IMG/VR virus record: IMGVR_UViG_3300042887_003321 | Coordinates: 41,002-105,001 of that record | Reading direction: 5' to 3' (one strand) | Origin: a virus | Length of the DNA stretch: 64,000 bases | Shown: piece after piece, positions 1,110-63,771 of the stretch | Layout: the number at the start of each line of letters is the position of its first letter | How positions within the stretch are numbered: the first letter of the stretch is position 1 | Position numbers and translations under genes: made by a program | The notes under the pieces: model-generated | Database searches by the model: none | Seen by the model: only the letters and a program-made list of their open reading frames with translations | Told to the model about the DNA's origin: nothing

Positions 1110-1113
1110 AATA

Positions 1114-18552: not shown

Positions 18553-18558
18553 ACTATT

Positions 18559-24779: not shown

Positions 24780-25059
24780 AATATCCGTCTAATTCTTCTA
24801 TTATACTATACATTTCTCTAAATACATAACCCGTCTCATCATCGGCTTCAAACGAACCAATTCTATCTATGGATTTCATTCTATCCATTGCGTTTTGAAT
24901 TCTCTCTTGCATTGAATCCAAAAGTGTATCTGCCTGAGTGTATTCTTTTTCTAACTCATCCAAATTTTCTTCAACTGCTTCTAACTTCCGTAATAGATTC
25001 CATACAAAGAAACCTAACACTATATCAGTTAAAAACAATATTACTAAAAGCGTTACCAT
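24745..25059 (-). CDS. Small membrane protein with coiled coil
   Basis: The 104-residue protein has one N-terminal membrane segment (MVTLLVILFLTDIVLGFFVW, residues 1-20), then a coiled coil (about 22-65) and an acidic C-terminus. It overlaps the sigma factor gene by 35 bases and ends with TAG. The topology (N-terminal anchor, cytoplasmic coiled coil) suggests a scaffold at the inner membrane; the function is unknown. Confidence 0.65.
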   Translation of the reverse strand: MVTLLVILFLTDIVLGFFVWNLLRKLEAVEENLDELEKEYTQADTLLDSMQERIQNAMDRMKSIDRIGSFEADDETGYVFREMYSIIEELDGYYGQKSEITEEQ

Positions 25060-25060
25060 A

Positions 25061-25867: not shown

Positions 25868-25869
25868 AA

Positions 25870-26493: not shown

Positions 26494-26514
26494 AAATTAT
26501 CGTTTAAATTTTAT

Positions 26515-26546
26515 ACAATATACAACAAAAAATGTATATTACCAAA
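26515..26546 (-). promoter_or_regulatory. Bacteroidota-type promoter for the clpP-like gene
   Basis: Minus strand: TTTGG (26542-26546), 19 bases, TATATTGT (26515-26522), about 22 bases before the start codon at 26493. Confidence 0.7.
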
Positions 26547-26563
26547 TATATTTTTAATTATTT

Positions 26564-27571
26564 TTATCTATATCTATCAGCGCCGGTTTTTGCATAAGTG
26601 TGTGTTGGTGTTGGTGTTGGTGTTTTTGATTCTTCACTATATAGATTTAATGCTTCTTCAGTAGTTGGTTCAAATACTACATCAGGTCTTTCTTCTTTAG
26701 TTTCTACAACCGGTTCTTTAATTTCTTCTTTAGAATTGATAACTATTTCTTCTTTGATTGGTATTTCTTCAATAGGTTTAATTTCCACTATCTTAACTTC
26801 TTTTATAAGTTTATTTAGGGCTATAACCATAGAAATTGCTAATGGGTCAAATACCAATACAATTAATAATGTAAACCAATTTACAATTCTATCCATACCC
26901 CACCCAGTTAATTTATCCAAGTATCTTAACGGACCTATTTCAGCAGCTACATCATTGTTTGACTCCTTATCTAATATTTGTAAATCCAAAGAAGTCAACG
27001 AATCATTCAATGATTCTATTTTTAAACTTAAAATATCTCTTTGCTGAACCGCCATTTTTAATTCACTACTTAAAACCTTTCGTTGGGAGGCAGCACCCCT
27101 TTCAGTCTGAGAGTTATTGGTTGCTAACCCACCTCTTAATGATGATATGGATGTTTCCAATAATTTTTTTTCAGCGTTTAAATCCACCAATTGCTCTTTG
27201 AATCTATTTCGTTTTACATCAACAACACTAACCTCTTTATTAAGGATAGTAAACTTATCACTCGTTGTTTGGTATGCCGAAGTCAAAAAACCATATATAC
27301 CCAAAGATGTAATCATCATTAGAATTACAACCGCTGAAACTAAATACCATTTTAACCACCCAATTACTTTCCAATAGTTATGAAGGTATGACGCAAGAAT
27401 TATTTTTGCAAATTCTAATGCCCCCGCCATTATAATAACTTCAGTTCTTGCTCCAGCGAAAAGTGAACTAAGACCGAATACGGAATAGTATGCAGCTGAA
27501 CCAGCAAGTGTAAATGTGGATAATATCATTAAGATTATGAAACCATTTTTTCTCGTAAAAAAATTTTTCAT
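26564..27571 (-). CDS. Membrane protein with central coiled coil
   Basis: The 335-residue protein has three N-terminal membrane segments (about residues 11-31, 42-62, 74-97), a Lys/Glu-rich coiled coil (about 105-210), a fourth membrane segment (about 232-254) and a long Glu/Pro/Lys-rich tail. The tail ends with a TPTPTPTHTY run encoded by a short GGTGTT DNA repeat (about 26598-26626). Similar membrane/coiled-coil proteins occur in T4-like marine phages. A role in the host inner membrane during infection is inferred. Confidence 0.7.
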   Translation of the reverse strand: MKNFFTRKNGFIILMILSTFTLAGSAAYYSVFGLSSLFAGARTEVIIMAGALEFAKIILASYLHNYWKVIGWLKWYLVSAVVILMMITSLGIYGFLTSAYQTTSDKFTILNKEVSVVDVKRNRFKEQLVDLNAEKKLLETSISSLRGGLATNNSQTERGAASQRKVLSSELKMAVQQRDILSLKIESLNDSLTSLDLQILDKESNNDVAAEIGPLRYLDKLTGWGMDRIVNWFTLLIVLVFDPLAISMVIALNKLIKEVKIVEIKPIEEIPIKEEIVINSKEEIKEPVVETKEERPDVVFEPTTEEALNLYSEESKTPTPTPTHTYAKTGADRYR

Positions 27572-27574
27572 ATG

Positions 27575-27739
27575 TTATTCCATTTTTTTAACTTTATTAA
27601 CTTCCTCAGTTGTATTTATTATCAAATCTTTTGATATCAAGCTTGATTGTAAACAACAAGTAATAACAAGACAAACTTGAAAATATAAAATAAATATCCA
27701 AAAATAGATAATAACCTTAAACAGGTTAATTCTGCCCAT
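27575..27739 (-). CDS. Small membrane protein
   Basis: The 54-residue ORF starts ATGGGCAGAATT inside the last codons of the UV endonuclease gene (14-base overlap) and ends 3 bases before the next start. Residues 6-30 (LFKVIIYFWIFILYFQVCLV) form one membrane span and the C-terminus is charged (KDLIINTTEEVNKVKKME). Operon-like packing supports it; no homolog is known to me. Confidence 0.5.
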   Translation of the reverse strand: MGRINLFKVIIYFWIFILYFQVCLVITCCLQSSLISKDLIINTTEEVNKVKKME

Positions 27740-28619
27740 ACTGATTTAAGTAATTAAGAACCGCTAATTCTTTCATTTTAGCTTCTACTTCAATATCCAA
27801 ATCGTAACCATAAGTTTCAATTTTGTTTGAAATAAAATCTGAATGTGCTTGAGGGATTTTACCTGGTGCTGATTCTGAATAGTGAACTACGGGTTTGATT
27901 CCATCGGGCCAAGTTGTCATTGCTAACTCCAAAGCTTCCTGCTCTGATAAACCACCTGTACAAAATTTGTGGTGGTGGTAATCAAATACAATTGGGATAC
28001 CAGTTCTTTGGTGGATATACATCAGGTCTTTTACTGAATACATACTTGCCTTATCATCGTTTTCTACCGTCAGCCTGGTTTTAACCGATTCAGGCAACCT
28101 TTCAAAGTTCCGACAGAATCTATCCATCGCTGATTCTTTATCCCCATAGACACCATTACAATGGATATTAATGACATTGTAGGGGGTTCTACTCAACCCC
28201 ATCAGGTCAAAGACCTCCCCATGCAACGATAAATCGGTTATGGTGTTGTTTACCACCTTTTCATTGGGTGAAACGAGTACATTAAAGGGGCCAGGATGAG
28301 ATGTAATCCTTTGTCCATAGTTGGATACCAATACCCCAGCACCCTTCAGGAGATTGGATATATGAGCAAAATGAGGCATATCTGATAGTGGGTACTCAGA
28401 TGACCAGGGGAATAGATTGGAGGTGATTCTAAAGAGTTTTATACCCATATTTTCATTCCATTTGATAATCTCTATCAGGTCACGAGTGTTTTGCAACCCA
28501 AGCTCCGAAGCCCTGCTAATACCTTCCTTTAAAAAGGTTTTTCTAATCATACCCCTATTGGTGGTAATCTTTTTCTTGCCCAAAGTCATATTGATGCAAG
28601 CGTATCCTAAGTTTGACAT
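27726..28619 (-). CDS. UV-damage endonuclease (UvsE/UVDE family)
   Basis: The protein has 297 residues from the ATG at 28619 (MSNLGYACINMTLG). I reject a longer start at 28679, because the first 60 bases would be a terminator hairpin and a promoter. The family pattern is present: LGYACINMTL, LFRITSNLFPWSSEYP, SNYGQRITSHPGPFNVLVSP, VINIHCNGVYGDKESAMDRF, LTVENDD and DYHHHKFCTGG (metal ligands). The TIM-barrel enzyme nicks DNA 5' to UV photoproducts and gives a light-stressed phage an alternative to T4 DenV. Confidence 0.88.
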   Translation of the reverse strand: MSNLGYACINMTLGKKKITTNRGMIRKTFLKEGISRASELGLQNTRDLIEIIKWNENMGIKLFRITSNLFPWSSEYPLSDMPHFAHISNLLKGAGVLVSNYGQRITSHPGPFNVLVSPNEKVVNNTITDLSLHGEVFDLMGLSRTPYNVINIHCNGVYGDKESAMDRFCRNFERLPESVKTRLTVENDDKASMYSVKDLMYIHQRTGIPIVFDYHHHKFCTGGLSEQEALELAMTTWPDGIKPVVHYSESAPGKIPQAHSDFISNKIETYGYDLDIEVEAKMKELAVLNYLNQYGQN

Positions 28620-34934: not shown

Positions 34935-34959
34935 GAAAAGTGTCCATTTTATTGGACAC
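34935..34959 (-). terminator. Palindromic terminator of the VWA gene
   Basis: Minus strand: GTGTCC, 8-base loop, GGACAC then TTTTC. The stop codon of the VWA gene lies in the loop. It is one of six copies of the same palindrome. Confidence 0.65.
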
Positions 34960-37123
34960 CCACCTCAAACTTACCATTTAATGTCTTAGCCAGGTCCATA
35001 ACCTCTTTTACATTAATGAACCTCGCGTCCTTACCATACATCCGATTAAAATCATCGGCGTAGGAGGTATTATGCATTCGTTGCGAACTATATTCACTAA
35101 TAAAGTAAGATAGAACACTAACACCACCCATCCTCATTTTATTGACCTGGTCAGCGGTGTGTTTAATAGCAGAGTCGCCCTCATAACTCATTTCCTTATT
35201 TTCAAAGGTAGGCATACCATCCGAAAAGTTAATTAGGTATTTATCGGAATTATCTTTGGAATTCAAAATTTCTCCCATAATCGCCTCATAACACAATCCT
35301 TCAGGTGTTGTACCATTTGGAATTAAATGTTTGAACATACTTTTAATCTTTGAGAAATTATCAACCCTACTATCATAAGCAATTACAATCATCGGAACTG
35401 ATGTGCCATTATCATATGTGCTTCGGTAACTAATAACCACATTGATATTTGATATCATTGAAGCGGCCTTAGCGATAGCAACCACAGCAGTTTGTGTGTT
35501 ATCCCATTTCTTTCCACCCATTGAACCACTAGCATCAACTGAAATGTGAAGAGTAACCGGCTTTACCGAATTAGTTTGAATCTTTTCAAAGATATTGAAA
35601 TTACCAAACCCAACCTCGTGTAACATTCGGGATGATATTTTACCCGATTTAAGACGGGGTGTAACCAAACTACGATTCTCATCACGCGTTTTCAGCTTCT
35701 TACCCAATAAAACACCTAATGCGATACCATTATCAATGTGGGTTTGATTATAATCAGTTCTACCATTGTAGTTTGTAGTAATACCAAATGCCTGAGATTC
35801 AATCAGCGATTTAGTCAGCTTCCTAACTAAATAACACGATGTTTTCTGAACACCACGCCATTGAATTTCAGCGGATACATTCTTCAAATCTACATCAGAT
35901 TCTTCTAAAGCGTTTACTACAGAGGATTCATTTTTACCAATCTTCCTTTTAGCAATATCACCATTCAAAAAATCTTTCTGCTTTTTTATAGCGTTATTAA
36001 GTCTGTTTCTAAGAGAAGGTGAAAGTTTATCTCCAGAACCACCAGAACTATTGTTAGAAGAATCACCATCAGAAGAATCACCATCAGAAGAATCACCATC
36101 AGAAGAATCACCATCAGAAGAATTACTCATATCCAAATTACCATCACCATTAGATTCCATAGAATCGTTACCTGTTTGGGGTGAATCAGTATCACCTGTC
36201 ATTGGTGAATTACCGTTAGAATCACCTGAAGATGATTCATTACCATCACCATCAGATGAAGAAGATGATTCTTTACTTTGTGCGGGGTTATTAGTATAAA
36301 CTGCATCAAAGATAGTTAAGAAAATATTAGAAGCCAACTCCAAACTATCAGTAGTAGTTTTTAACCTACCAATGTTTTTTAAATCCATCAAAGCCCAAAT
36401 CGTTGGAAAAGATTTTAGAGCACCCAACCTACGATTTTTGTTTGTAATGTTGATGAGTCGGAACATATAAGATTCCCAATCTTCGGTGGTATATTCATCA
36501 GATACCAAAGCCTTATCAATAACACTATCATTAAAGTATTTATCATACATAGAGTGATAGTACCCACGATAACCAGGGGCTGTGTTATAAATGTAATTAT
36601 CAATTCGCCTATCCTCAACAATATTAAGGATATCTTTTAGATAAGTATATGCATCCTGCCTCAATGCACGAACAGCCAATATATCAGATTCAAATACCGT
36701 CGGCATTTCAGCAATACGATTAGCAATAACGGGTGGTATCACTGTAGAGCTTGGTGCGAAATATTTTTGAAGAATACTAAATTCGGTAAGTTTAATGTGC
36801 GAACCTTCGTGGAGAGCCAAACCTACCGTCGGGTCAAATTCAGCATCATCCAATTTTGAAGAAATTACCACAGTACTACCATCAGTATAAGATTGGTTGC
36901 CTGTAGAAAATTTGACAGGAATTTGTTTGTTTGTTACAATTCTAACAAAGTTAGAAATGGCCCGTTTATAAGAGGCCAACTTAATAAGGTCATTAGTTTT
37001 GACCTCATACGCATCAGTTTTAGTAGAACCACCAAAACCACCACGATATATGGTAGGGGTAAAGAGCGACTTATCCAACCAATAGTCGGAATAGTAGGAC
37101 TTGCTTTTTTTGTATTTTTTCAT
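34949..37123 (-). CDS. VWA-domain protein (CobT-like partner of the AAA+ ATPase)
   Basis: The 724-residue protein has an N-terminal half with a GLALHEGSHIKLTEF-type motif (HExxH-like, about residues 108-115), a long Ser/Asp/Gly linker (about 280-360) containing five SDGDS units, and a C-terminal von Willebrand A domain with the MIDAS motif DASGSMGG near residue 530. The combination of zincin-like N-terminus, acidic linker and VWA domain resembles CobT and other MoxR-coupled VWA proteins. With the AAA+ gene it probably forms a chelatase-like or remodelling machine. Confidence 0.82.
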   Translation of the reverse strand: MKKYKKSKSYYSDYWLDKSLFTPTIYRGGFGGSTKTDAYEVKTNDLIKLASYKRAISNFVRIVTNKQIPVKFSTGNQSYTDGSTVVISSKLDDAEFDPTVGLALHEGSHIKLTEFSILQKYFAPSSTVIPPVIANRIAEMPTVFESDILAVRALRQDAYTYLKDILNIVEDRRIDNYIYNTAPGYRGYYHSMYDKYFNDSVIDKALVSDEYTTEDWESYMFRLINITNKNRRLGALKSFPTIWALMDLKNIGRLKTTTDSLELASNIFLTIFDAVYTNNPAQSKESSSSSDGDGNESSSGDSNGNSPMTGDTDSPQTGNDSMESNGDGNLDMSNSSDGDSSDGDSSDGDSSDGDSSNNSSGGSGDKLSPSLRNRLNNAIKKQKDFLNGDIAKRKIGKNESSVVNALEESDVDLKNVSAEIQWRGVQKTSCYLVRKLTKSLIESQAFGITTNYNGRTDYNQTHIDNGIALGVLLGKKLKTRDENRSLVTPRLKSGKISSRMLHEVGFGNFNIFEKIQTNSVKPVTLHISVDASGSMGGKKWDNTQTAVVAIAKAASMISNINVVISYRSTYDNGTSVPMIVIAYDSRVDNFSKIKSMFKHLIPNGTTPEGLCYEAIMGEILNSKDNSDKYLINFSDGMPTFENKEMSYEGDSAIKHTADQVNKMRMGGVSVLSYFISEYSSQRMHNTSYADDFNRMYGKDARFINVKEVMDLAKTLNGKFEVGVQ
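36056..36124 (-). repeat. 15-bp tandem repeat encoding SDGDS
   Basis: About four and a half copies of the 15-base unit agaagaatcaccatc (plus strand) inside the VWA gene. They encode the acidic linker between the N-terminal domain and the VWA domain, and their copy number may vary between isolates. Confidence 0.9.
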
Positions 37124-38100: not shown

Positions 38101-38114
38101 AATTTATTTTGTTG

Positions 38115-38185
38115 AGCGGGTAGATGGAATCGAACCACCGTCATAGGCTTGGAAAGCGAATGTAATACCATTATACGATACCCGC
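38115..38185 (-). tRNA. tRNA-Gly(TCC)
   Basis: 71 bases; acceptor GCGGGTA/TACCCGC, T-loop TTCGATT, anticodon TCC. Two mismatches lie in the middle of the anticodon stem, which is unusual. No CCA is encoded. Confidence 0.85.
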
Positions 38186-38223
38186 AAGTATCCCCACTAA
38201 GGGGGATGTAATCTGAAAAACTA

Positions 38224-38391
38224 TTATTGAGCAGCTGCTGTGCTATCTACAACAGGATACAACTCCTCAGTAGAATCTACAACAGCAGAATCAACTGGTT
38301 CGGCAACCAATTCAGTTTGTTCAGCGTTGTTGGTACAAGCCGTAAATGATACAGCCATAACTACCATTGCGATAAAAAAGATGTTTTTCAT
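38224..38391 (-). CDS. Small lipoprotein
   Basis: The 55-residue ORF starts MKNIFFIAMVVMAVSFTACT with a hydrophobic signal and the lipobox SFTAC (Cys at residue 19). After the Cys comes an acidic, Val-rich tail (AEQTELVAEPVDSAVVDSTE). It should be exported and lipid-modified, probably on the host periplasmic or outer surface. It has its own host-type promoter and lies between two tRNA genes. A phage lipoprotein of this size could block superinfection; the exact role is unknown. Confidence 0.75.
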   Translation of the reverse strand: MKNIFFIAMVVMAVSFTACTNNAEQTELVAEPVDSAVVDSTEELYPVVDSTAAAQ

Positions 38392-38414
38392 AATTAATTT
38401 GTTTTAAATTTTAC

Positions 38415-38446
38415 ACAATATACAAAAGAAATTTCATATTTCCAAA
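38415..38446 (-). promoter_or_regulatory. Promoter for the lipoprotein gene
   Basis: Minus strand: TTTGG (38442-38446), 19 bases, TATATTGT (38415-38422), 24 bases before the ATG. Confidence 0.7.
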
Positions 38447-38467
38447 TTTTTTCTTAAATAAATACAA

Positions 38468-38851
38468 TTATTTTTTTGATAAAATATCATTAAGCATGTT
38501 TATTTCAGTTTTAAACATTTCTTCTTCCATTTTCCCACGCTCTTTCTCAATTGCTTTTTGTACTAACCCAATCAATTCATTTGATAAGAATGAACTAATG
38601 GTAAACTCAAATGTATAGTAGTGGTTGGAAACTTTAACCATATTATTTTGCAATATCAAAGTGTATTGTTTATCATCTGTCTGAACATAGTATCTACCCG
38701 ATGGTGTCATCAAGTAGTGGGTTTTTGGATTTGACATCAATCGGATTAAAACCCTCTTTGTTAAAATCTCTCTTTCGGTATAGGGCTCGTGTCTAACCAG
38801 CCCCTGCCTAAACCAAACCTGCAATTTTTTAAATTTGTATTTTATATTCAT
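38468..38851 (-). CDS. Protein of unknown function
   Basis: The 127-residue protein starts MNIKYKFKKLQVWFRQGLVR and contains MTPSGRYYVQTDDKQYTLIL, a beta hairpin region. The C-terminal third is a charged helix (ALVQKAIEKERGKMEEEMFK-like). The MTPxGRYxV phrase also occurs in the protein at 31752-32102. It is followed immediately by tRNA-Arg on the same strand. Unknown. Confidence 0.55.
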   Translation of the reverse strand: MNIKYKFKKLQVWFRQGLVRHEPYTEREILTKRVLIRLMSNPKTHYLMTPSGRYYVQTDDKQYTLILQNNMVKVSNHYYTFEFTISSFLSNELIGLVQKAIEKERGKMEEEMFKTEINMLNDILSKK

Positions 38852-38868
38852 TATTTTTTATTTTTTTG

Positions 38869-38941
38869 TACGGTTAATAGGGTTCGAACCTATACGGAAA
38901 CTTTAGAAGAGTTTAATGCTATCCAATTACATCATAACCGC
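38869..38941 (-). tRNA. tRNA-Arg(TCT)
   Basis: 73 bases; acceptor GCGGTTA/TAACCGT (G1-U72 wobble), AAACT/AGTTT anticodon stem, loop CTTCTAA. The phage tRNA reads AGA, a codon expected to be frequent in an AT-rich genome. Confidence 0.85.
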
Positions 38942-38960
38942 AAATTATATAAATATACTA

Positions 38961-38985
38961 CTCTATCCAACTGAGCTACGGGCGC
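38961..38985 (-). pseudogene. 5' half of a second tRNA (acceptor plus D-arm only)
   Basis: The minus strand begins GCGCCCGTAGCTCAGTTGG and runs on to ATAGAG, a perfect 5' acceptor strand and D-arm of a tRNA (closest to a tRNA-Arg type). The anticodon and T halves are missing; an AT-rich 19-base spacer leads directly into the intact tRNA-Arg(TCT). Confidence 0.75.
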
Positions 38986-38999
38986 ATATTCATTTTTTG

Positions 39000-39084
39000 T
39001 ACCTCGGACCGGAATCGAACCGGTACAGCTTCATCAGCTACAGGATTTTAAGTCCTGCGTGGCTACCTATTTCACCACCGAGGC
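39000..39084 (-). tRNA. tRNA-Leu(TAA)
   Basis: 85 bases with a long variable arm; CAGGA/TCCTG anticodon stem, loop CTTAAAA; acceptor GCCTCGG/CCGAGGT (G1-U72). Confidence 0.9.
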
Positions 39085-39091
39085 ATTATCA

Positions 39092-39274
39092 TTATTTATC
39101 AACTACTTTTTTCCTCACCGCTTCAGATACACTAAACAGTTCACTAAATTGGTCTTTCTTCATTTTTTTTGTTTCACAAAATAACTCAATAGCATCTTCT
39201 AAAGAACTTGCTTTTGTTTTACTAAGTGCTTCTTTTGTAGTGTCCGATTTAAAATAAAAGTAGTATTCTTTCAT
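39092..39274 (-). CDS. Small protein of unknown function
   Basis: The 60-residue protein starts MKEYYFYFKSDTTKEALSKT (from 39274; an earlier Met at 39286 lies very close to the promoter). It has a short beta strand followed by charged helices (KKMKKDQFSELFSVSEAVRK). It has its own promoter. No motif is recognised. Confidence 0.55.
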   Translation of the reverse strand: MKEYYFYFKSDTTKEALSKTKASSLEDAIELFCETKKMKKDQFSELFSVSEAVRKKVVDK

Positions 39275-39296
39275 GTTCTTTCCCATTTAACTTTAC

Positions 39297-39328
39297 ACAA
39301 TATACAAATAATTATTTAATTATCCAAA
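39297..39328 (-). promoter_or_regulatory. Promoter for the 60-residue gene and following tRNAs
   Basis: Minus strand: TTTGG (39324-39328), 19 bases, TATATTGT (39297-39304). Confidence 0.7.
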
Positions 39329-39771
39329 CTTTTTGTGTAATAAAAAACACCTACCCCCGCTTCCTCAAACATTTTGATACTTCGTTCAGCGCTTTCTTCC
39401 CATTTGGGCCCTTTAGCTCCACTATTTGTTCTACATATTATTTCAGATATGCCGGAATTTATTATATTACGAGCACAATCCGCACAAGGTATTCCACAAG
39501 TCATATACATTTTAGTATTTAGTGTAGATACTCCAATTCTTGCACAATTTATTATAGAATTAGTTTCCGCATGTGAGAACCAAAAGTATTTCTCTGGTCT
39601 TTCTTGTCTTTCATTAACATTATCATTAATCCCTCGTGGAAATGAGTTATAGCCGGTAGAAACAATTTCGTTATCTTTACCAACTATAACCACTCCGATT
39701 TGAGTTTTTTCATCTTTAGATTTTAACTTAACTTGTTCGGCTATGTTAATAAAATATTCATCCCATTTCAT
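39316..39771 (-). CDS. dCMP deaminase
   Basis: The 151-residue protein has the zinc-dependent cytidine/dCMP deaminase signature: HAETN (H67, E69) and CGIPCADC (C96, C99), plus STGYNSFPRGIND in the substrate loop. It converts dCMP to dUMP and so supplies dTMP synthesis, as T4 Cd does (193 residues). It is upstream of a promoter and downstream of the 93-residue gene. The C-terminus (YYTKSLDN) overlaps the next promoter's -33 box. Confidence 0.9.
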   Translation of the reverse strand: MKWDEYFINIAEQVKLKSKDEKTQIGVVIVGKDNEIVSTGYNSFPRGINDNVNERQERPEKYFWFSHAETNSIINCARIGVSTLNTKMYMTCGIPCADCARNIINSGISEIICRTNSGAKGPKWEESAERSIKMFEEAGVGVFYYTKSLDN

Positions 39772-39816
39772 ATTTTATATATTTGATAGTAATTATAAGT
39801 AAAGCGTCTATTTTCA

Positions 39817-40092
39817 TCAAAATTTAAAAGATAGTTTGTATTCCTTATCACCTTCAGTTTTGAAATGAATATTTTTACCCTTCCAATTTACAATTTCGGT
39901 TATCTTATCAGAGCAAAAAGAATAGAATGAACCCATACCATCTGAATACTCAAAATCAAGAACAAGCATATTACCAACATGCGGTCCACCATCTTCCCAA
40001 TTTTTGATTCCACCTCGTAAATCTCTTTGGGCCCATTTAACGGATTCGGCTTCCCAAATCCGTCCGCTGTTTACATCTTCTAATTTATACAT
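39817..40092 (-). CDS. Protein of unknown function
   Basis: The protein has about 91 residues starting MYKLEDVNSGRIWEAESVKW (an in-frame ATG 6 bases earlier is possible). It contains a GGPHVGNMLVLDFEYSDGMG beta region and Trp/Gly-rich segments. It overlaps the end of the RpiB gene by several bases. No family is recognised. Confidence 0.55.
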   Translation of the reverse strand: MYKLEDVNSGRIWEAESVKWAQRDLRGGIKNWEDGGPHVGNMLVLDFEYSDGMGSFYSFCSDKITEIVNWKGKNIHFKTEGDKEYKLSFKF

Positions 40093-40516
40093 TTTCATTT
40101 ATATTAATTGCCATCATTCTTTTAATATGCCTATCTCCCTCAAAATCGGTTTCTAAAAAAGTGTTAAGGATATCAATTGCATCATCAATACAAAGAAACC
40201 TTGCGGGTAAACAAATAATATTTGCATTATTATGTGCCCTTGCTAATCGTGCTATATCAACATCCCAACAAAGTGCCGCACGAATACCTGGCCATTTGTT
40301 TGCTGTCATACACACCCCATTACCGCTACCGCATATAAGAATACCAAATTGCGATTTAAAGTTTGAACACATTTTGTGTGCGTAGTCCGGGTAATCAACG
40401 GACTCGGGAGTATTTGTTCCCAAGTCCGTTAATTCCATTCCACACTTATCCATATACTCAATCAGTTGAGTTTTTAATTCCCATCCTGCGTGGTCTGATG
40501 CGATTAGTATTGACAT
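40085..40516 (-). CDS. rpiB: Ribose-5-phosphate isomerase B (RpiB)
   Basis: The 143-residue protein follows the RpiB/LacAB family: IASDHAGWELK (D8, H9), DLGTNTPESVDYPDYAHKM, GILICGSGNGVCMTANK with the catalytic C62, and ALCWDVDIARLARAHNNANI. It interconverts ribose 5-phosphate and ribulose 5-phosphate. In a phage it would draw carbon toward ribose for nucleotide synthesis, in line with the PurA-like and dCMP deaminase genes nearby. The length matches bacterial RpiB (about 145-150). Confidence 0.9.
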   Translation of the reverse strand: MSILIASDHAGWELKTQLIEYMDKCGMELTDLGTNTPESVDYPDYAHKMCSNFKSQFGILICGSGNGVCMTANKWPGIRAALCWDVDIARLARAHNNANIICLPARFLCIDDAIDILNTFLETDFEGDRHIKRMMAININENV

Positions 40517-40529
40517 TTTTTACCTTATC

Positions 40530-42098
40530 CTAATTTTTTATAATACGCGTTGTGTAATTTCCCGATGGTGTTGTGATATTAACAAAAAGAATACCACTTA
40601 CATTATCTACGATAGTAACCATTGAATGGTTTTCATTGTATGTAATATCCGATTGAACATTAGAACCCATAATATTAAATACTGAAATATTTGTAATTCG
40701 TTCACCGCATTCTACCATAAATTCATTTTTAATTGGATTGGGATAAACATTCATTCGGTTTGAAATCTCCATATAACGAACCGATGTCCTAATTGTATCT
40801 GGGTTGAAATTAGACCAACCACTCGTCCAGTCAGATTGACCAAACGCACCACGATGGGTAACGGGCGTAAAGAAATTATTTGAAATTCGGGGATTTGAAA
40901 AAGAAGCACCTGTTAATAGAATACTATTTTGTTGTGGTAATAGCTGTGGGTTTGTTAGGCTATTATAACCCGAAGATAATCCGATTTGGGATGTACTATC
41001 AAATATCTCATTTCCTCTCAAAGTATCACCAAAATAATTCAACATCCCAGCCCAAGTATTCGTACCTTGTGTTTGTTCAAACTTATTAGTCATATTAGCA
41101 AATACCACTCTTTCAATTTGGAGTGAATCATTAGTCGCATTTAATTGAGCCGATGAACCATCAATATGCAATCCAGTCGGATATCCCATAAAAAGGGAAT
41201 TGTAGACCGATGTACGGGTGTTCCTACGAAGATGTAACGCCCTACGATAAAGAGAAGCAGGTCCACCATTTTCTTTTGGGCCGATGATAGTTACATTAGA
41301 AAATATCGGAGCAGTTTGTGGTGTGTTTGAAGTCCCTGTTCCATCGTTATCGGATTCAAATCCGTTTGATTGAGATTGGTCTGCAATCTGCGGGTCACGC
41401 ATTGAAAGAGCAAATTGAACTTTTCCTCTATAACCAAAATCAGTATCAAAATCATCATCCCATCCACGATGGGCAATCAAGTACTTACAATTGACTGTAC
41501 CACCAAACCATTCATAGGAATCATCACCAGAATAGGATACTTGAACATTCTCAACCACAGTCTTACTACCAACCCCACCAAATGTCAATCCATTGATTTC
41601 ACTATTGGGTTGATATGCTATGCCGGGAAATTCAATGCGGACATATCTAAATACACCCGAACTATCTTCATCATCAGTTCCACCATAAGTAGCATCTTGT
41701 CCTAAGAGCCCACCTTCAATAATACCAACTCCACCAGGAATGTTTGTTGTAGCGTTTCCTAATATTACAACCCCACCCCAATCACCATAAGTACGCTGCC
41801 CTACAGTTTGATTGGATGTAAAGATAATTGGTTGAGCCGCCGTTCCGTTTGCATAGATGCGGCCGTTTTTTGTAATAATAAGCGTTCCCTTTGATGCTTT
41901 ATCACCTCTGATAATTGTACCAGGTTCAATTGTTAGTGTTGCGCCATTCTTTACAAACCGATTACCTTCTAATAAATAAATTGTTCCACTATTCCAAGTG
42001 GTGTTTGTTGTAATATCTGTTCGGATGGTATCAACTGTAGTTTGCGCTTGTGCGAAACTAAACATGCTCAAAAGAGCGAGAATAAAACTTTTTTTCAT
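40530..42098 (-). CDS. Secreted protein with type IX secretion sorting domain
   Basis: The 522-residue protein has a signal peptide (MKKSFILALLSMFSFAQAQ). Its body is rich in right-handed beta-helix-like strands (EPGTIIRGDKASKGTLIITK, GDWGGVVILGNA, GDDSYEWFGGTVNCKYLIAH). The C-terminus reads NVYPNPIKNEFMVECGERIT, ISVFNIMG, GILFVNITTPSGNYTTRIIK, the type A sorting domain of the Bacteroidota type IX secretion system. It should therefore be exported to the cell surface by host machinery. Similar beta-helix proteins are known in Bacteroidota genomes, so acquisition from a host is likely. Confidence 0.88.
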   Translation of the reverse strand: MKKSFILALLSMFSFAQAQTTVDTIRTDITTNTTWNSGTIYLLEGNRFVKNGATLTIEPGTIIRGDKASKGTLIITKNGRIYANGTAAQPIIFTSNQTVGQRTYGDWGGVVILGNATTNIPGGVGIIEGGLLGQDATYGGTDDEDSSGVFRYVRIEFPGIAYQPNSEINGLTFGGVGSKTVVENVQVSYSGDDSYEWFGGTVNCKYLIAHRGWDDDFDTDFGYRGKVQFALSMRDPQIADQSQSNGFESDNDGTGTSNTPQTAPIFSNVTIIGPKENGGPASLYRRALHLRRNTRTSVYNSLFMGYPTGLHIDGSSAQLNATNDSLQIERVVFANMTNKFEQTQGTNTWAGMLNYFGDTLRGNEIFDSTSQIGLSSGYNSLTNPQLLPQQNSILLTGASFSNPRISNNFFTPVTHRGAFGQSDWTSGWSNFNPDTIRTSVRYMEISNRMNVYPNPIKNEFMVECGERITNISVFNIMGSNVQSDITYNENHSMVTIVDNVSGILFVNITTPSGNYTTRIIKN

Positions 42099-42149
42099 AG
42101 ATTGTTTTTTTAAATTGTTTAATTGTTTATATAAATAAATATTGATTTT

Positions 42150-42488
42150 TTACTTCCAAAATATTTGTATCAGTATAATAACTCCTGAAAGGATTAAACA
42201 TACCATTGTTTTTGTGGTTAGGTTTTCTCCAAAAACTAATTGTGAAAGTATAGCAAAAACCACTACCCCAATACCAAACCCAATAAGACGAGATGGCCAA
42301 AGTAATCCACCATAATGAGTGATGATTTGACGAACCGATTCCATATACATCATTGATATAGGAATACCCATCAATACAATAACCCAATAGTTATCTTTGA
42401 ACCATTGGTATTTTAACTGACCCTGGAGTTGATAGAAAGTAAGTATCTGCGCCAAAAGCATCAGTAACATTCCGATTAAAAGTGCCAT
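42150..42488 (-). CDS. Four-helix membrane protein (DMT/SMR-like)
   Basis: The 112-residue protein has four membrane segments (about residues 2-18, 33-50, 65-83, 92-110), with MALLIGMLLMLLAQILTFYQ at the start and CLILSGVIILIQIFWK at the end. The size and layout resemble small DMT/DUF486-type membrane proteins. The transport substrate is unknown. It lies between the secreted beta-helix protein and tRNA-Pro. Confidence 0.65.
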   Translation of the reverse strand: MALLIGMLLMLLAQILTFYQLQGQLKYQWFKDNYWVIVLMGIPISMMYMESVRQIITHYGGLLWPSRLIGFGIGVVVFAILSQLVFGENLTTKTMVCLILSGVIILIQIFWK

Positions 42489-42507
42489 TTTTTATTTTTT
42501 AAGTTAG

Positions 42508-42581
42508 TAGGGGAAGCGGGACTCGAACCCACAACCTCGTGCTCCCAAAGCACGTAATCTAACCAATTGATATATTCCCCT
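42508..42581 (-). tRNA. tRNA-Pro(TGG)
   Basis: 74 bases; acceptor AGGGGAA/TTCCCCT, anticodon stem CGTGC/GCACG, loop TTTGGGA. Confidence 0.9.
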
Positions 42582-42582
42582 A

Positions 42583-42795
42583 TGTTTCCCCACCCTGAGA
42601 TTTGGGGTGAGTAGTCATTCTGGTTTTTTCCTATTGATAAAACCTACAGGGCATCCCCTATTAAAACAGTCACACTACGAAGGAGGAGCTGTGAGTGGCA
42701 CCTTTAACCCTAAGAACCGGCATTCCGCTGTCCGATTTAAGCGAGCCCATTGTTTAAGTCTTGAACTAAAGACTCTGAGTATCTCTTACTCATTG
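42583..42795 (-). ncRNA. Structured spacer between tRNA-Asp and tRNA-Pro
   Basis: This stretch of about 210 bases has no convincing ORF. It shows several hairpins on the minus strand: GAGTA-AGAGA-TACTC, AGTCTT-TAGTTC-AAGACT, CGG-AATG-CCG and CACCC/GGGTG just before tRNA-Pro. It lies directly 3' of the tRNA-Asp with a non-canonical T-loop. It could be a structured RNA or decayed tRNAs. Confidence 0.45.
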
Positions 42796-42866
42796 CGGTT
42801 CATAGGGGTTATGCTCCCCTGCCTCGGCAGTGACAGTGCCGTATTCTACTATTATACTAATGAACC
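42796..42866 (-). tRNA. tRNA-Asp(GTC) with non-canonical T-loop
   Basis: 71 bases; acceptor GGTTCAT/ATGAACC with discriminator G (correct for Asp), CGGCA/TGCCG anticodon stem, loop CTGTCAC. The T-stem AGGGG/CCCCT is perfect, but the 7-base loop is AGCATAA instead of TTCRANN. Confidence 0.8.
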
Positions 42867-42870
42867 ATTG

Positions 42871-42943
42871 AGCGGCAAACTGGATTCGAACCAGCGACCC
42901 TAACCTTGGCAAGGTTATGCTCTACCAACTGAGCTACTGCCGC
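42871..42943 (-). tRNA. tRNA-Gly(GCC)
   Basis: 73 bases; acceptor GCGGCAG/TTGCCGC, TAACC/GGTTA anticodon stem, loop TTGCCAA, T-loop TTCGAAT. Confidence 0.9.
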
Positions 42944-42949
42944 AAAGTG

Positions 42950-43022
42950 AGCTTCTTATCGGATTCGAACCAATGACCATCCGCTTACAAGGCGGGAGCT
43001 CTACCAACTGAGCTAAAGAAGC
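42950..43022 (-). tRNA. tRNA-Thr(TGT)
   Basis: 73 bases; acceptor GCTTCTT/AAGAAGC, CCGC/GCGG anticodon stem, loop CTTGTAA. Confidence 0.9.
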
Positions 43023-43028
43023 ATTTTG

Positions 43029-43102
43029 TGGACCGTACCGGAGTCGAACCGATGACCTTCTGAATGCAAATCAGACGTTCTAGCCAACTGAACTAACAGC
43101 CC
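43029..43102 (-). tRNA. tRNA-Ala(TGC)
   Basis: 74 bases; acceptor GGGCTGT/ACGGTCC (two wobble pairs), CTGA/TCAG anticodon stem, loop TTTGCAT. Confidence 0.9.
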
Positions 43103-43108
43103 TTTTGT

Positions 43109-43180
43109 AGCGGGTGAGGGATTCGAACCCCCGATTCCTGGCTTATGAGACCTGGCGGATAGACCACTTCCATAACCCGC
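43109..43180 (-). tRNA. tRNA-Met or Ile2 (CAT), copy 1
   Basis: 72 bases; acceptor GCGGGTT/CACCCGC, loop CTCATAA, one A-A mismatch in the anticodon stem. G1-C72 argues against an initiator tRNA; whether C34 is modified (Ile) cannot be told. Confidence 0.85.
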
Positions 43181-43194
43181 AATATATTTCAATT

Positions 43195-43617
43195 TTAAAA
43201 AATCCTTTTACCTTCAGGATTGAAATGCATAAATTGATGTGTTTCCATATCCGATTGCCATTTGTAGTGAACAACAAGCCCGTTATTATTTTTATAATGA
43301 TTATCACCTAAATTGTGGTGGGTTTCTATTATTCTTGTTAGCATTTCCCTTGCCACATCATCGGATTTAGTTGATTGGGCACACATAATATTTTCAGTTC
43401 CACCCCACTTAAAAAAGTACATAGTCATTAAATCAAATTTAGGATGGACTGTATATATAACCCAATAATCAGATTGATTTAATCTTTCCCAATTTGTTGT
43501 ACCAAATTCAAGACGATTTCTTTCTTTGATTTCAGTAACAGTAAATCCAACCATTGGCTTTTGTGCAAACGCAGTTGAACTAAGTAATACAAATAGGGTA
43601 ATAAGTAGTTTTTTCAT
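43195..43617 (-). CDS. Secreted protein inside the tRNA array
   Basis: The 140-residue protein has a clear signal peptide (MKKLLITLFVLLSSTAFAQ, cleavage after AQ). The mature part has paired strands and a C-terminal His/Asn-rich region (ETHHNLGDNHYKNNNGLVVH). The export signal resembles that of the T9SS-sorted protein, but there is no sorting domain, so a periplasmic location is expected. It is the only exported protein embedded in the tRNA cluster. Function unknown. Confidence 0.7.
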   Translation of the reverse strand: MKKLLITLFVLLSSTAFAQKPMVGFTVTEIKERNRLEFGTTNWERLNQSDYWVIYTVHPKFDLMTMYFFKWGGTENIMCAQSTKSDDVAREMLTRIIETHHNLGDNHYKNNNGLVVHYKWQSDMETHQFMHFNPEGKRIF

Positions 43618-43632
43618 AGTTTTTGTTTTTTG

Positions 43633-43706
43633 TACTCCGTACGGGACTCGAACCCGTAAGCTTTCCCGTGAAAGGGGAATGTCCTAACCAATTAGACGAA
43701 CGGAGC
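43633..43706 (-). tRNA. tRNA-Glu(TTC)
   Basis: 74 bases; acceptor GCTCCGT/ACGGAGT (G1-U72), TCCC/GGGA anticodon stem, loop CTTTCAC. Confidence 0.9.
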
Positions 43707-43716
43707 GTATTGATTG

Positions 43717-43788
43717 CGTCCTGAGTAGGAGTCGAACCTACGACCAACGGATTAACAGTCCGTCGCTCTACCTCTGAGCTATCAAGAC
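43717..43788 (-). tRNA. tRNA-Asn(GTT)
   Basis: 72 bases; acceptor GTCTTGA/TCAGGAC, discriminator G, CGGA/TCCG anticodon stem, loop CTGTTAA. Confidence 0.9.
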
Positions 43789-43793
43789 AATTG

Positions 43794-43876
43794 TACCGAA
43801 GGCGAGACTCGAACTCGCAATGCTATAAAGCGCTGGTTTCTAAAACCAGTGTGACTGCCAATTCCACCACTTCGGT
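43794..43876 (-). tRNA. tRNA-Leu(TAG)
   Basis: 83 bases with a long variable arm; acceptor ACCGAAG/CTTCGGT, CTGGT/ACCAG anticodon stem, loop TTTAGAA. Confidence 0.9.
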
Positions 43877-43877
43877 A

Positions 43878-43909
43878 TAAATATACAAAATAAATTTTAA
43901 TTATCCAAA
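43878..43909 (-). promoter_or_regulatory. Promoter for the tRNA-Leu(TAG) subcluster
   Basis: Minus strand: TTTGG (43905-43909), 19 bases, TATATTTA (43878-43885), ending 2 bases before the 5' end of tRNA-Leu(TAG). Confidence 0.65.
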
Positions 43910-43920
43910 TTTATTTTTTG

Positions 43921-44007
43921 CGGAAGATATTGGATTTGAACCAATGAACCAGTTACCCGATTAACACCTTAGCAGGGTGCCGCTTTAGACCACTCAGCCA
44001 ATCTTCC
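43921..44007 (-). tRNA. tRNA-Ser(GCT)
   Basis: 87 bases; acceptor GGAAGAT/ATCTTCC, discriminator G, CACC/GGTG anticodon stem, loop CTGCTAA, long variable arm. Confidence 0.9.
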
Positions 44008-44012
44008 TTTGG

Positions 44013-44086
44013 GGCGACCGATGGGAATCGAACCCACCCGCACTAGAACCACAATCTAGCGCTCTACCAACTGAGCTACAGCCGCC
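44013..44086 (-). tRNA. tRNA-His(GTG)
   Basis: 74 bases including an encoded G-1 opposite C73, as required for His identity; CTAGA/TCTAG anticodon stem, loop TTGTGGT. Confidence 0.9.
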
Positions 44087-44088
44087 AT

Positions 44089-60753: not shown

Positions 60754-60788
60754 AAAAAAACCCCGATGGTTTATCGGGGTTCTCTTTT
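60754..60788 (-). terminator. Intrinsic terminator (bidirectional)
   Basis: AACCCCGAT, 5-base loop, ATCGGGGTT with T-runs on both strands. It ends the MKLSELRQ gene series on the minus strand. Confidence 0.8.
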
Positions 60789-60801: not shown

Positions 60802-61191
60802 TTAGGACCTACCTAATAGTTTTGTGTAATTTGAATAAAGATATTTATCGATTAACTTATTCTCTAACTTTCTAAATTTGGCCAACTTATCCCTATTACC
60901 AACATACGCATCACCTTCAGTTTCTAATTTTATTTGATGGGTTAATTCATGAATAATTGCGGTTTCTGGGTCATGTAATCTATTAACATCAAATGTTATA
61001 TACAACCCCTTCATCGTTATCTTATTGTAAGTGGTCGCTGCTCCAGCACCACCAACCTTACCAAACTTTATAGGTAGAGGTTTAATAGCTTCAGACTTAC
61101 ATAACGCTGTATAATAAGCCCTTATGTTTTCTTGTACTGTTAAATCCTTAATAGCTTCCGCAATCATTTGCCTTAATTGTGATAGCTTCAT
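60802..61191 (-). CDS. Leader-tagged probable metallopeptidase (HELTH motif)
   Basis: The 129-residue protein starts with the leader MKLSQLRQMIAEAI and contains ETAIIHELTHQIKLETEGDA, an HExxH zinc motif (H81, E82, H85) with acidic residues downstream that could supply the third ligand (E92). It is the shortest known type of zincin-like fold and could act on host cell-wall or virion proteins. As one of six leader-tagged genes it is probably packaged in or attached to the virion. Confidence 0.75.
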   Translation of the reverse strand: MKLSQLRQMIAEAIKDLTVQENIRAYYTALCKSEAIKPLPIKFGKVGGAGAATTYNKITMKGLYITFDVNRLHDPETAIIHELTHQIKLETEGDAYVGNRDKLAKFRKLENKLIDKYLYSNYTKLLGRS

Positions 61192-61234
61192 TGTTTGTTT
61201 CCTCTTTATGATTTAATTATCACCATACTCATTT

Positions 61235-61942
61235 TCAAGCATCATCATCCCTCACTATTTTAGTTCCATTCCAATCATCATATATTTCATATCCCCCACT
61301 TTTTATAACTGCTTTAAGAAATGGAATAATCTTTGTTAATTGATTGTCTGTTAAAGTTTCAAATTCGGGATGTTCTCCAAAAGTAAATTTATTACGCGGT
61401 TTTTTCTTTTGTTCGGGTGTATATCCTACCTTCTTAACGATACTTTCCATCTCATCATCTACTGCATCTGAATCTAAATCATATGAATCTAAAGTATTCA
61501 CCATTTTTTCGTATAAATCCGAAGCCTCTTTTGCAAGTTTAGAATAAGACGGGGTAGGTTTTGGTGTTTGAGTGGGTTGACTAACAACCTTTGGTGCTTC
61601 TGGTTCTACACTCCATATTGTATTAGTATTGGCGATATCTAATTTTGTGTTATCTGTAAAATCAACCGTAAATGAGTTGCTACCACTATTAACGCGTTTT
61701 ATTGTTTTTCCTTTATATGCAGTTGGATTAGATATTTTAGATTCATTACCATCTATAAAAATTGTTGTTTTATCTGTAAAAACAACAGTATACCCATATT
61801 TGGATTTATTATGTGTAAAGCTTTTTATTGTTTTTCCTTTAAGTTTATTTAAGTCACCCATAGGTCGGCGCATTTCCTTAGCTTCCACAATTACCTGTCT
61901 AATCTCTTCTCTGATTAGTTGTCTTAGTTGGTTTAGTTTCAT
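61235..61942 (-). CDS. Leader-tagged protein of unknown function
   Basis: The 235-residue protein starts MKLNQLRQLIREEIRQVIVE, the family leader. After it come two similar KGKTIKSFTHNKSKYGYTVV / KGKTIKRVNSGSNSFTVDFT units (about 34-100), then a Pro-rich linker (PTQTPKPTPSYSK) and a helical C-terminal domain (residues 140-235). A structural or binding role is likely; no catalytic motif is seen. Confidence 0.65.
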   Translation of the reverse strand: MKLNQLRQLIREEIRQVIVEAKEMRRPMGDLNKLKGKTIKSFTHNKSKYGYTVVFTDKTTIFIDGNESKISNPTAYKGKTIKRVNSGSNSFTVDFTDNTKLDIANTNTIWSVEPEAPKVVSQPTQTPKPTPSYSKLAKEASDLYEKMVNTLDSYDLDSDAVDDEMESIVKKVGYTPEQKKKPRNKFTFGEHPEFETLTDNQLTKIIPFLKAVIKSGGYEIYDDWNGTKIVRDDDA

Positions 61943-61960
61943 TGTTTGTTTCCGTTTATT

Positions 61961-62245
61961 TTAATATAATTTAGATTCTTGTATATATGCTGAGTAATTT
62001 GAACCCCCCATAGCCATATTATAACTTGCTATCTTTTGTGCTTCTTCTGCCAATTTTTTGTTTTTATAAATACCATAGATACCACCCTCTGCTCCTTTGA
62101 TAACCACATAACAAGTTGCTCCTTTTAATTTACGATGTTTATCCATTAACGTACCAATCTCATCATGTATATTTTCAACAATCCCACTATTTAAAGCCTT
62201 TTTGGCTTCCTCTCTGATAATTTGTCTTAATTCATTTAGTTTCAT
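61961..62245 (-). CDS. Leader-tagged small protein
   Basis: The 94-residue protein starts MKLNELRQIIREEAKKALNS. It then has a VENIHDEIGTLMDKHRKLKG segment and ends with GGSNYSAYIQESKLY. With only about 70 residues past the leader, it is the smallest of the series. Confidence 0.65.
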   Translation of the reverse strand: MKLNELRQIIREEAKKALNSGIVENIHDEIGTLMDKHRKLKGATCYVVIKGAEGGIYGIYKNKKLAEEAQKIASYNMAMGGSNYSAYIQESKLY

Positions 62246-62276
62246 TGTTTGTTTCCTCTTTAGTGTTATTTAATAA

Positions 62277-63032
62277 TCAATTTTTAAGGGCATCTTTCAC
62301 AATGAAATACTCATCATTTTTTAAATTATCTGAAAGAACACTTATAAAATCTGGCAAGTTTAGATTTGATTTTTTATATTTATCGGTAAAATATAGGGTA
62401 AGTTCCGTAATTGTTGGTGCGAGTTTAAAATTAGAATCACCATACTTTGAATATGTTTTTCCTGGCTCGTCATACTTACGACTATCAGGTTCAAGTTTTT
62501 TCATATACCCGGTATCGTAACCACTTACTAAAGGATTGTTATTTGCACTACTACTAGTTTTCAATTTACGATAATATACATCTCGTGCCTCTAACGCTAA
62601 CGAATAATTAGAAATTCCGGCATCACGAGCGGCTGTAAATGAAATATCTCTAATTGCATCTTGATATTTTGCAATATTAAAGTCTTTTATGGAGGTTAAG
62701 GTGATTTTTATACCATTATCACCACCAGATTTTATAATTTGTACTTTTGCACCGGGCAGTTTTTTCTTAACTTCAATCTCAACACTCTTAATATCATTAT
62801 TAGTCGCATTAGCAATAACCACATCATATTTAGATTTTAATGAAAGAAGCTCTTCTTTAAATGGTTCTGTTTCTTTTTTATATTTATCCATTAAATTTTT
62901 TGATACATCGGCAAATTTCTTCCCAGCGGTTATAATTTCTTTTTTTAAAATATTCGCATCGGTTGTGGATGATTCATTTAAAGCCTTTTTAGCTTCCTCT
63001 CTGATTAGTTGTCTTAACTCTGATAGTTTCAT
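62277..63032 (-). CDS. Leader-tagged helical protein
   Basis: The 251-residue protein starts MKLSELRQLIREEAKKALNE, the family leader, then has a long Lys/Glu-rich helical stretch (ILKKEIITAGKKFADVSKNL) and an alpha-beta C-terminal part. No motif is recognised. It is the largest of the leader-tagged proteins. Confidence 0.65.
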   Translation of the reverse strand: MKLSELRQLIREEAKKALNESSTTDANILKKEIITAGKKFADVSKNLMDKYKKETEPFKEELLSLKSKYDVVIANATNNDIKSVEIEVKKKLPGAKVQIIKSGGDNGIKITLTSIKDFNIAKYQDAIRDISFTAARDAGISNYSLALEARDVYYRKLKTSSSANNNPLVSGYDTGYMKKLEPDSRKYDEPGKTYSKYGDSNFKLAPTITELTLYFTDKYKKSNLNLPDFISVLSDNLKNDEYFIVKDALKN

Positions 63033-63074
63033 TATTTGATTCCTCTTTGATTTATATTATATAAATATTGTTCT

Positions 63075-63401
63075 TTAAGCTAATACATCTTCAAATGGGT
63101 ACTTATCCAAAAGCCCCTTTTCCTTACACCACTTCTTCCATTCGGATGTCTTAAATAACTTTTCTGTCAATTTATCCCATTCATCATTAATTTTGTGCAT
63201 AGAGGGTCGTGACCAAAGTTGGTCCATACTTCTGGAGTTGTATAACATTTGTCTAGCACGATTTTCAATAAAGTATAACCTCTCCACATCCTTTATGAAC
63301 TTAGGTGAGTAGTTGGCTTTATCAGAAGCGGATATAGTAACTTCGTTTATTACTGTTACAATCTCTTCTCTTATTAACTGTCTTAACTCTGATAGTTTCA
63401 T
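63075..63401 (-). CDS. Leader-tagged small protein
   Basis: The 108-residue protein starts MKLSELRQLIREEIVTVINE and is helical and basic after the leader (RMYFIENRARQMLYNSRSMD-like). The C-terminal SEWKKWCKEKGLLDKYPFED region looks like a small folded unit. Unknown function. Confidence 0.65.
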   Translation of the reverse strand: MKLSELRQLIREEIVTVINEVTISASDKANYSPKFIKDVERLYFIENRARQMLYNSRSMDQLWSRPSMHKINDEWDKLTEKLFKTSEWKKWCKEKGLLDKYPFEDVLA

Positions 63402-63426
63402 TGTTGGTATTTCGTTATTTCTTTTA

Positions 63427-63765
63427 CTATGATTTTTTTATTGAGTTAATATATGTTCTATAAACTCCAGCCGCAGTTACCTTACCAGCAGCTTTTGCAC
63501 GTTGTTCCATCGCTATAGCTGCTTGTATTTTATGTGCATGGGGTTTACCCGATTTCTTTATCTTACTAACACTAACAGTTGCATCTTTTACTGTAGCAAA
63601 TTTTAATCCATGTATTGTTCCTTCAGGATTTTCATCAGTATATAAATCGGAGTGCTTGCTAGAATCTCTATGCTGACCGGGTTTCCGTACAATTCTATTT
63701 TCTGCTTCGTTTATTACACCAGCAATCTCATCCCTAATCATCTGTCTTAACTCTGATAGTTTCAT
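63427..63765 (-). CDS. Leader-tagged basic protein
   Basis: The protein has 112 residues from MKLSELRQMIRDEIAGVINE (63765; an in-frame Met 6 bases upstream is less likely). The body is basic and Ala-rich (HRDSSKHSDLYTDENPEGTI, then QAAIAMEQRAKAAGKVTAAG). The Lys/Ala composition would suit DNA contact in the head. It is the first of the leader-tagged series. Confidence 0.65.
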   Translation of the reverse strand: MKLSELRQMIRDEIAGVINEAENRIVRKPGQHRDSSKHSDLYTDENPEGTIHGLKFATVKDATVSVSKIKKSGKPHAHKIQAAIAMEQRAKAAGKVTAAGVYRTYINSIKKS

Positions 63766-63771
63766 ATACAT

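Follow-up and report, generated by a model that had tools for sequence, protein, structure and literature searches.

A recurrent N-terminal leader on unrelated proteins of an uncultured T4-like phage probably acts as a removable head-targeting peptide

Why should six neighbouring phage genes encode proteins of unrelated sequence that begin in nearly the same way? The question is raised by six consecutive minus-strand genes at positions 60802-63765 of a 64-kb stretch of viral DNA (the window), which represents positions 41002-105001 of a 105,001-bp IMG/VR virus record. The whole record is labelled G000; coordinates with this label refer to the record, and those given as window positions or with no label refer to the 64-kb stretch. 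Our analysis suggested, with a probability of about 75%, that the N-terminal leader common to these proteins acts like the capsid-targeting sequence (CTS) of phage T4 in another sequence dialect, that is, as a peptide that would target proteins to the prohead core and be removed later; from the sequences we infer packaging, cleavage and injection of its cargos.

All six open reading frames (ORFs) named in an earlier sequence-only reading of this DNA were found in place. The mean pairwise identity among the six proteins was 78% at residues 1-13, 30% at residues 14-20 and 4% at residues 21-60, and BLASTP among their post-leader parts gave no significant match to one another, in agreement with the earlier description of the bodies as otherwise unrelated. 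The leader consensus was MKL[SN][EQ]LRQ[LIM]IREE and, about four residues further on, [VA][IL]NE. That reading had described 14-20 nearly uniform residues; the common N-terminus was borne out, but the strictly common part comprised 13 residues plus [ILVMF]xE near residue 20, and the proteins encoded at 60802 and 61961 deviated from it. The cluster, which reached to less than 250 bases from the record end, contained the following features (a slash marks the predicted cut):

63706..63765, minus: leader 1, MKLSELRQMIRDEIAGVINE/A; gene body to 63427; mature part of isoelectric point (pI) 10.1; the 'HSDLYTDENP' cargo
63342..63401, minus: leader 2, MKLSELRQLIREEIVTVINE/V; gene body to 63075; homologue with its own leader in the relative G002
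62973..63032, minus: leader 3, MKLSELRQLIREEAKKALNE/S; gene body to 62277; G002 homologue MKVSELKKLIREETKRVLNE/S
62174..62245, minus: leader 4, MKLNELRQIIREEAKKALNSGIVE/N, site at residue 24; gene body to 61961
61883..61942, minus: leader 5, MKLNQLRQLIREEIRQVIVE/A; gene body to 61235
61129..61191, minus: leader 6, divergent, MKLSQLRQMIAEAIKDLTVQE/N; most 3' gene, body to 60802
60802..61191, minus: 129-residue gene of leader 6 and a probable small zinc metallopeptidase
60937..60951, minus: HExxH motif of the latter, HELTH, residues 81-85
60754..60780, minus: terminator-like hairpin ACCCCGATAAACCATCGGGGT plus T6, closing the cluster; read by eye, unscored

For the ORF at 63427-63771, the second ATG, at 63765, is the most likely start. 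Leader 4 has LNS at residues 18-20 and its [ILVMF]xE at residue 24, and leader 6 has a possible earlier site, IAE/A, at residue 12.

An all-against-all comparison of the N-termini of the record gave one outstanding cluster of eight, consisting of the six genes and two others outside the window; a ninth, related stretch lies close to these two:

G000 24032-24550 and G000 24577-24828: leader genes 7 and 8 (leader locus 2)
G000 24896-25291: ninth, related stretch, LRELIRSVVREIINE/D

At codons 2-13 of the leaders, synonymous divergence (pS) was 0.70 and nonsynonymous divergence (pN) 0.15. The peptide, not the DNA, is conserved, and purifying selection acts on it; because the codons drift while the peptide is kept, the leader is not a DNA-level repeat. 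The leader DNA pattern had 20 matching stretches in IMG/VR but no match among 84,980 prokaryote genomes, so the leader is not some ordinary helix common to many cellular proteins, a possibility that the first reading had raised against itself. The initial form of this pattern mostly drew a different conserved family of the baseplate operon and was therefore narrowed to the Q8 form. TBLASTN of the 20-residue leader found no match in isolated phages, the query probably being too short, and no published description of the leader was found in the open-access literature. The leader was predicted to be helical in structure models, as had been proposed; its supposed amphipathic character fared less well, since the hydrophobic moment exceeded that of shuffled sequences weakly (P 0.03-0.38).

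From its head and tail gene matches, G000 was identified as a T4-like myovirus (uncultured, bacterial host), with baseplate wedge proteins encoded inside the window and the following genes:

G000 14811-15449: head-maturation protease of gp21 type (phrog_207, E = 1.3e-54)
G000 8322-9989: major capsid protein (phrog_138, E = 3.6e-70)
G000 16857-18770: portal (phrog_213)
G000 895-3297: tail sheath (phrog_23)
G000/L009 10016-11155: acidic scaffold-like protein, in the same record as protease, major capsid protein and portal

The closest isolates by protease and portal were Microcystis phage Mel-JY01 (55% and 51% identity, respectively) and the Flavobacterium phages immuto (50% and 55%). The protease was also present in the longest relatives bearing the leader or its MKLDQLRK form.

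The end of the leader fits the hydrophobic-x-Glu cleavage rule of gp21, one of the CTS features compared. Among 23 leader proteins with unrelated bodies, taken from G000 and its relatives, the information profile was high at residues 1-14, rose again at residues 17-20 ([VA][LI]NE) and fell toward background after residues 20-21. The motif [ILVMF]-x-E with its Glu at residues 18-24 was present in 20 of the 23 leaders, compared with 11.5% of equally sized windows taken further downstream in these proteins; the associated P value (2e-16) exaggerates the contrast because the leaders have a common ancestry. Variants with a shifted site kept the rule, as in GIVE/N at residue 24 and TVQE/N at residue 21. 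The earlier proposal of a gp21-type site at the leader end was thus upheld by the leaders and by the encoded protease.

The extended motif [ILVMF]xE[AGS] was enriched in two long proteins between the scaffold and the protease (11 seen against 2.5 and 8 against 1.5 in the shuffled expectation) and in a 484-residue neighbour of leader locus 2 (7 against 1.7), and was near the shuffled expectation in the sheath, portal, terminase, baseplate and tail-fibre proteins of G000. Other head-locus genes did not have a site motif significantly more often within their first 32 residues (4/16 against 10/97, P = 0.11). The second of the two long proteins is:

G000/L009 13426-14814, minus: 462-residue protein directly beside the protease, outside the window

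It contains five ESVNE linkers between unrelated segments, with Ala after four of them, and has the appearance of a core polyprotein that the head protease would cut into pieces. For comparison, T4 sequences were read as MKTFKEFTSTTTPVSTITE/A in IPI, MAKINELLRE/S in gp24 and ...SFLTE/A in gp23, the cuts shown for IPI and gp24 being placed by the motif. The major capsid protein precursors of G000, immuto and Mel-JY01 retain LLE/G and [VI][TS]E/A. The propeptides of the T4 internal proteins, gp24 and gp23 are removed in maturation (PMC5694885, PMC9026906). In Mel-JY01, a 388-residue protein between protease and scaffold (L147 22429-23595) resembles by eye an ADP-ribosyltransferase, the enzyme class of T4 Alt, and had no Pfam hit.

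The best evidence for the leader as a modular tag comes from the cargo encoded at 63427, judged by the sequences that precede it elsewhere. This cargo is widespread (at least 580 confirmed stretches), and its leader contexts were examined in the best 80. Some of these carried the G000-type leader, others the short leaders MIKLKLLLNE/, MISLKLLLKE/ and MIRLSDILNE/, and in further phages the same cargo followed leaders of T4 type (MKKFKQYIVE/E, MKTFYKFLE/D, VKTFKQFVE/E), so that on this cargo the leader is exchangeable with T4-type leaders, as the CTS comparison predicts. Where other domains preceded the cargo, they ended in DVME/A, DMFE/A or DMHE/A. The motif [ILVMF]xE lay within six residues before the cargo in 31 of 43 distinct junctions with enough preceding residues, against 7.0% of control windows from the same proteins. 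The metallopeptidase cargo (60802) likewise follows the leaders ILNE/G, ILSE/G, ILTE/G and VLNE/G, and within longer proteins it has SINE/A and SINE/G junctions; these longer proteins pair it with the WFGK domain (G000 24896) or with the AYGHMNHPFD domain of the NadR-like protein of G000. In cyanophages S-SM2 and Bellamy, one protein of 619-709 residues beside the terminase unites the 63427 cargo, the WFGK domain and a DUF5872-like segment, whose likeness to the DUF5872 stretch of G000 22564 was judged by eye.

The leader also behaves as a connector at the DNA level. A second phage group (G007, G014, G019, G020) carries two to four leader genes, flanked by the genes for tail tube and baseplate hub (named by resemblance to annotated relatives). 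The NPSYK... gene has the leader DNA ATGAAATTACAAGAATTAAGA when it stands first after the tail tube gene (G019) and ATGAAACTAAATCAACTAAGA in the other three phages, and the MKLQELRQ leader with its upstream DNA precedes three different cargos. Leader DNA in these sister phages therefore tracks the position in the cluster and not the cargo, which marks the leader as the place of cassette recombination. The leader serves as a standard connector for the gain, loss and recombination of cassettes, so that a packaged set could change easily. Both lines of evidence bear out the modular character first ascribed to the tag.

The cargos themselves were mostly basic, like T4 IPI (pI 9.0). Among the mature G000 cargos, 7 of 8 had a pI of at least 8, against a median of 6.2 for the other G000 proteins (P = 0.0014), and all six cargos tested in G002 were also basic. 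Five of the six cluster cargos had no significant family match in Pfam or PHROGs; the 63427 cargo matched phrog_727 (function unassigned, E = 0.0023), and its structure model was of low confidence, with a predicted local distance difference test (pLDDT) score of 73. PADLOC gave a single weak match, PDC-S47 (E = 0.014). The 60802 protein had no Pfam hit. In its model (pLDDT 93.6), the HExxH helix (residues 75-92) follows strands at 41-67 and lies next to a beta-sheet, and H81, E82 and H85 were invariant in 14 homologues. Its nearest solved folds were abylysin and selecase, both minigluzincins, and the protease Wss1, with weak E-values (0.02-0.5). On the strength of motif and model, this cargo is very probably a small zinc metallopeptidase, as the HExxH motif had first suggested.

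The CTS of T4 is carried by the internal proteins IPI-III and Alt (Mullaney and Black 1996; reviewed in PMC9026906). Like the leader described here, it is a short N-terminal peptide on proteins that are unrelated apart from it and mostly basic, terminates in hydrophobic-x-Glu, occurs in a phage with a gp21-type protease and bears a cargo set that varies among phages. Unlike it, the present leader reads MKLSELRQLIREE..NE, against MKTFKEF.. or MKTYQEF.. in T4, extends over about 20 residues with two possible sites, has at least 8 copies per genome and is the point at which cassettes recombine. A test for sequence likeness to the T4 leaders (MKT[YF].EF) found nothing in common with IPI beyond the initial MK and the terminal xxE. 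Since the structural features agreed and the sequence feature did not, the leader was not classed as the T4 CTS itself. The propeptide of the T4 vertex protein gp24 (MAKINELLRE/S) is also a short cleaved N-terminus, with KINELLRE comparable to KLNELRQLIRE, but gp24 is a shell protein and not a cargo, and the resemblance is too short for proof of kinship. In SPN3US, the diverged head proteins gp53 and gp54 have identical first 15 residues (MANFVKSKLARESVE) and xxE sites (PMC5694885); in this case the propeptides exceed 100 residues and are cut at A-x-E, and the giant phage is distant from G000.

A link to virions is provided by the cyanophages. The cytidylyltransferase T4-GC190 was found in purified S-SM1 virions (PMC3037559), the main text of that paper giving virion presence for T4-GC190 only, among T4-GC190 and T4-GC119. 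The Syn19 orthologue of T4-GC190 begins with a T4-type leader, MKKFSAFLNE/A, and thus such a leader sits on a virion-proven protein family. In the marine contig L215, a T4-GC190 relative (MKKFSEITE/A) is fused to the 63427 cargo. The multi-domain T4-GC119 proteins contain the same cargo domains as the G000 leader proteins; T4-GC190 and T4-GC119 differ from G000 in having a T4-type leader or a fusion instead of separate leader genes.

We propose that the helical tag would bind the scaffold or core, so that the cargo is enclosed as the shell assembles. The gp21-type protease, going by the site pattern and its presence in the phage, would then cut after [ILV]-x-Glu, mainly near residue 20 and perhaps also at residue 12, releasing into the head interior a mature protein that is in most cases basic. 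If T4 is a guide, these products would exit along with the DNA and act at an early stage in the new host; one of them is probably the small zinc metallopeptidase. Several points weigh against this proposal. The leader sequence differs from that of the T4 CTS, the site statistics count related sequences as independent, and the cargos are known here from genes alone, not from particles. Essentially leaderless homologues made up 27 of the best 80 for the 63427 cargo, and the cargos of the second phage group were not uniformly basic, two having a pI of 4.1. The leader helix of the metallopeptidase model continues into the cargo (residues 3-33), so the predicted cut falls inside a helix. In addition, a conserved gene of the baseplate operon begins with nearly the same helix, MKLDQLRKIIREEV.

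This last point is central to the foremost alternative, in which the leader helix serves to dock the proteins to the tail or baseplate (for example in the tube lumen or at the hub), so that they travel in the tail. The baseplate-operon gene lies beside a gp25-like wedge gene, begins with MKLDQLRKIIREEV or a near form in about 110 fetched IMG/VR loci (L012-L130), and its protein keeps xxE/A in 91 of 92 distinct members; a position orthologue occurs in immuto and another in the window:

22236-22733: position orthologue of the MKLDQLRKIIREEV baseplate-operon gene, 165 residues

The leader genes of the second group, between tail tube and baseplate hub genes, fit a tail location as well, though gene neighbourhood is not necessarily indicative of the assembly site. 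The xxE rule belongs to the head protease, and sites of this type were enriched in proteins of the head core but not of the tail; in addition, the same cargo bears elsewhere T4-type leaders, which in T4 act in the head. For these two reasons the head was weighted over the tail, narrowing a first reading that had named either as destination, and the tail route was considered unlikely. There is a slim chance that the proteins are cytoplasmic or host-directed late products which share an oligomerisation or partner-binding helix, spread by duplication and recombination, and are never packaged. The leaders are indeed related by descent, a predicted helix could pair with itself or bind a partner, and some cargo homologues have no leader; yet the bodies are unrelated, the conserved part ends at a site of protease type, the leader pattern (in the form used) is absent from prokaryote genomes, and T4-type leaders replace it at the same junction. 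That a DNA or RNA element at the gene starts (a translation start region or recombination site) is conserved with the peptide as by-product was rejected as very improbable on the synonymous divergence of the leader codons, despite the recombination of cassettes in or near the leader and the upstream stretch AAAGAGGAAACAAACA, or a near form, common to several of the six genes.

Beyond head targeting in one phage, the data allow a broader and more tentative picture, which may well be wrong: aquatic T4-like phages would run an open exchange of virion cargo, with leader dialects (MKLSELRQLIREE..NE, MIKLxxILNE, MKxFxxFxxE and EQFKRMQKLAGIITE) on shuffling cassettes under one common protease rule. 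The same domains would also be strung in core polyproteins cut by the head protease, and a shared packaged pool would move between phages with different scaffolds by a change of leader alone. If head targeting is true, a 20-residue rule would name, from sequence alone, the packaged proteins of many uncultured T4-like phages among genes now annotated 'hypothetical protein', turning the non-DNA head contents of aquatic T4-like phages into a testable list and supplying new tags with which proteins could be loaded into phage heads. Phages would then have, in recombination at a conserved tag, a mechanism for refreshing their packaged proteins, and a virus could bring a changeable protein set into its host.

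Flavobacterium phage vB_FspM_immuto_2-6A, a cultured relative whose host is Flavobacterium sp. LMO8, has its own leader set, MKKSQLRQIIKEA, MENFDLKKFLVEN and EQFKRMQKLAGIITES. The acidic scaffold-like proteins (L009 10016-11155; immuto, L158 and L159) end in [FW].[KV][LI]A[GN][IL] (AMRFQKLANIKK, SRWQKLAGIIK), an end that resembles the EQFKRMQKLAGIITES family, and this leader may copy the scaffold tail. Leader locus 2 also encodes an 801-residue NadR/cytidylyltransferase-like enzyme (G000 25856-28261; L010 6856-9261, minus) with the N-terminus MGNLIKEWIKGVLTE/E before its catalytic domain, possibly a packaged NAD-related enzyme. It was rejected as a T4-GC190 orthologue, and only superfamily likeness is claimed, because TBLASTN gave no cyanophage match. 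Three leader proteins of G002 (L163 9258-10211, 11023-11682 and 12073-12894) have a common NP.TGR.IKV.SAL.Y segment, and two of them gave sub-threshold matches (E 0.011-0.016) to LPD3, which is associated with large polyvalent proteins. Elsewhere in the window, 26 tRNA genes lie within about 9 kb (38114-46740), and a 724-residue protein encoded at 34949-37123 resembles phage cobalamin-biosynthesis (CobT-type) and peptidase families (phrog_5298, phrog_459).

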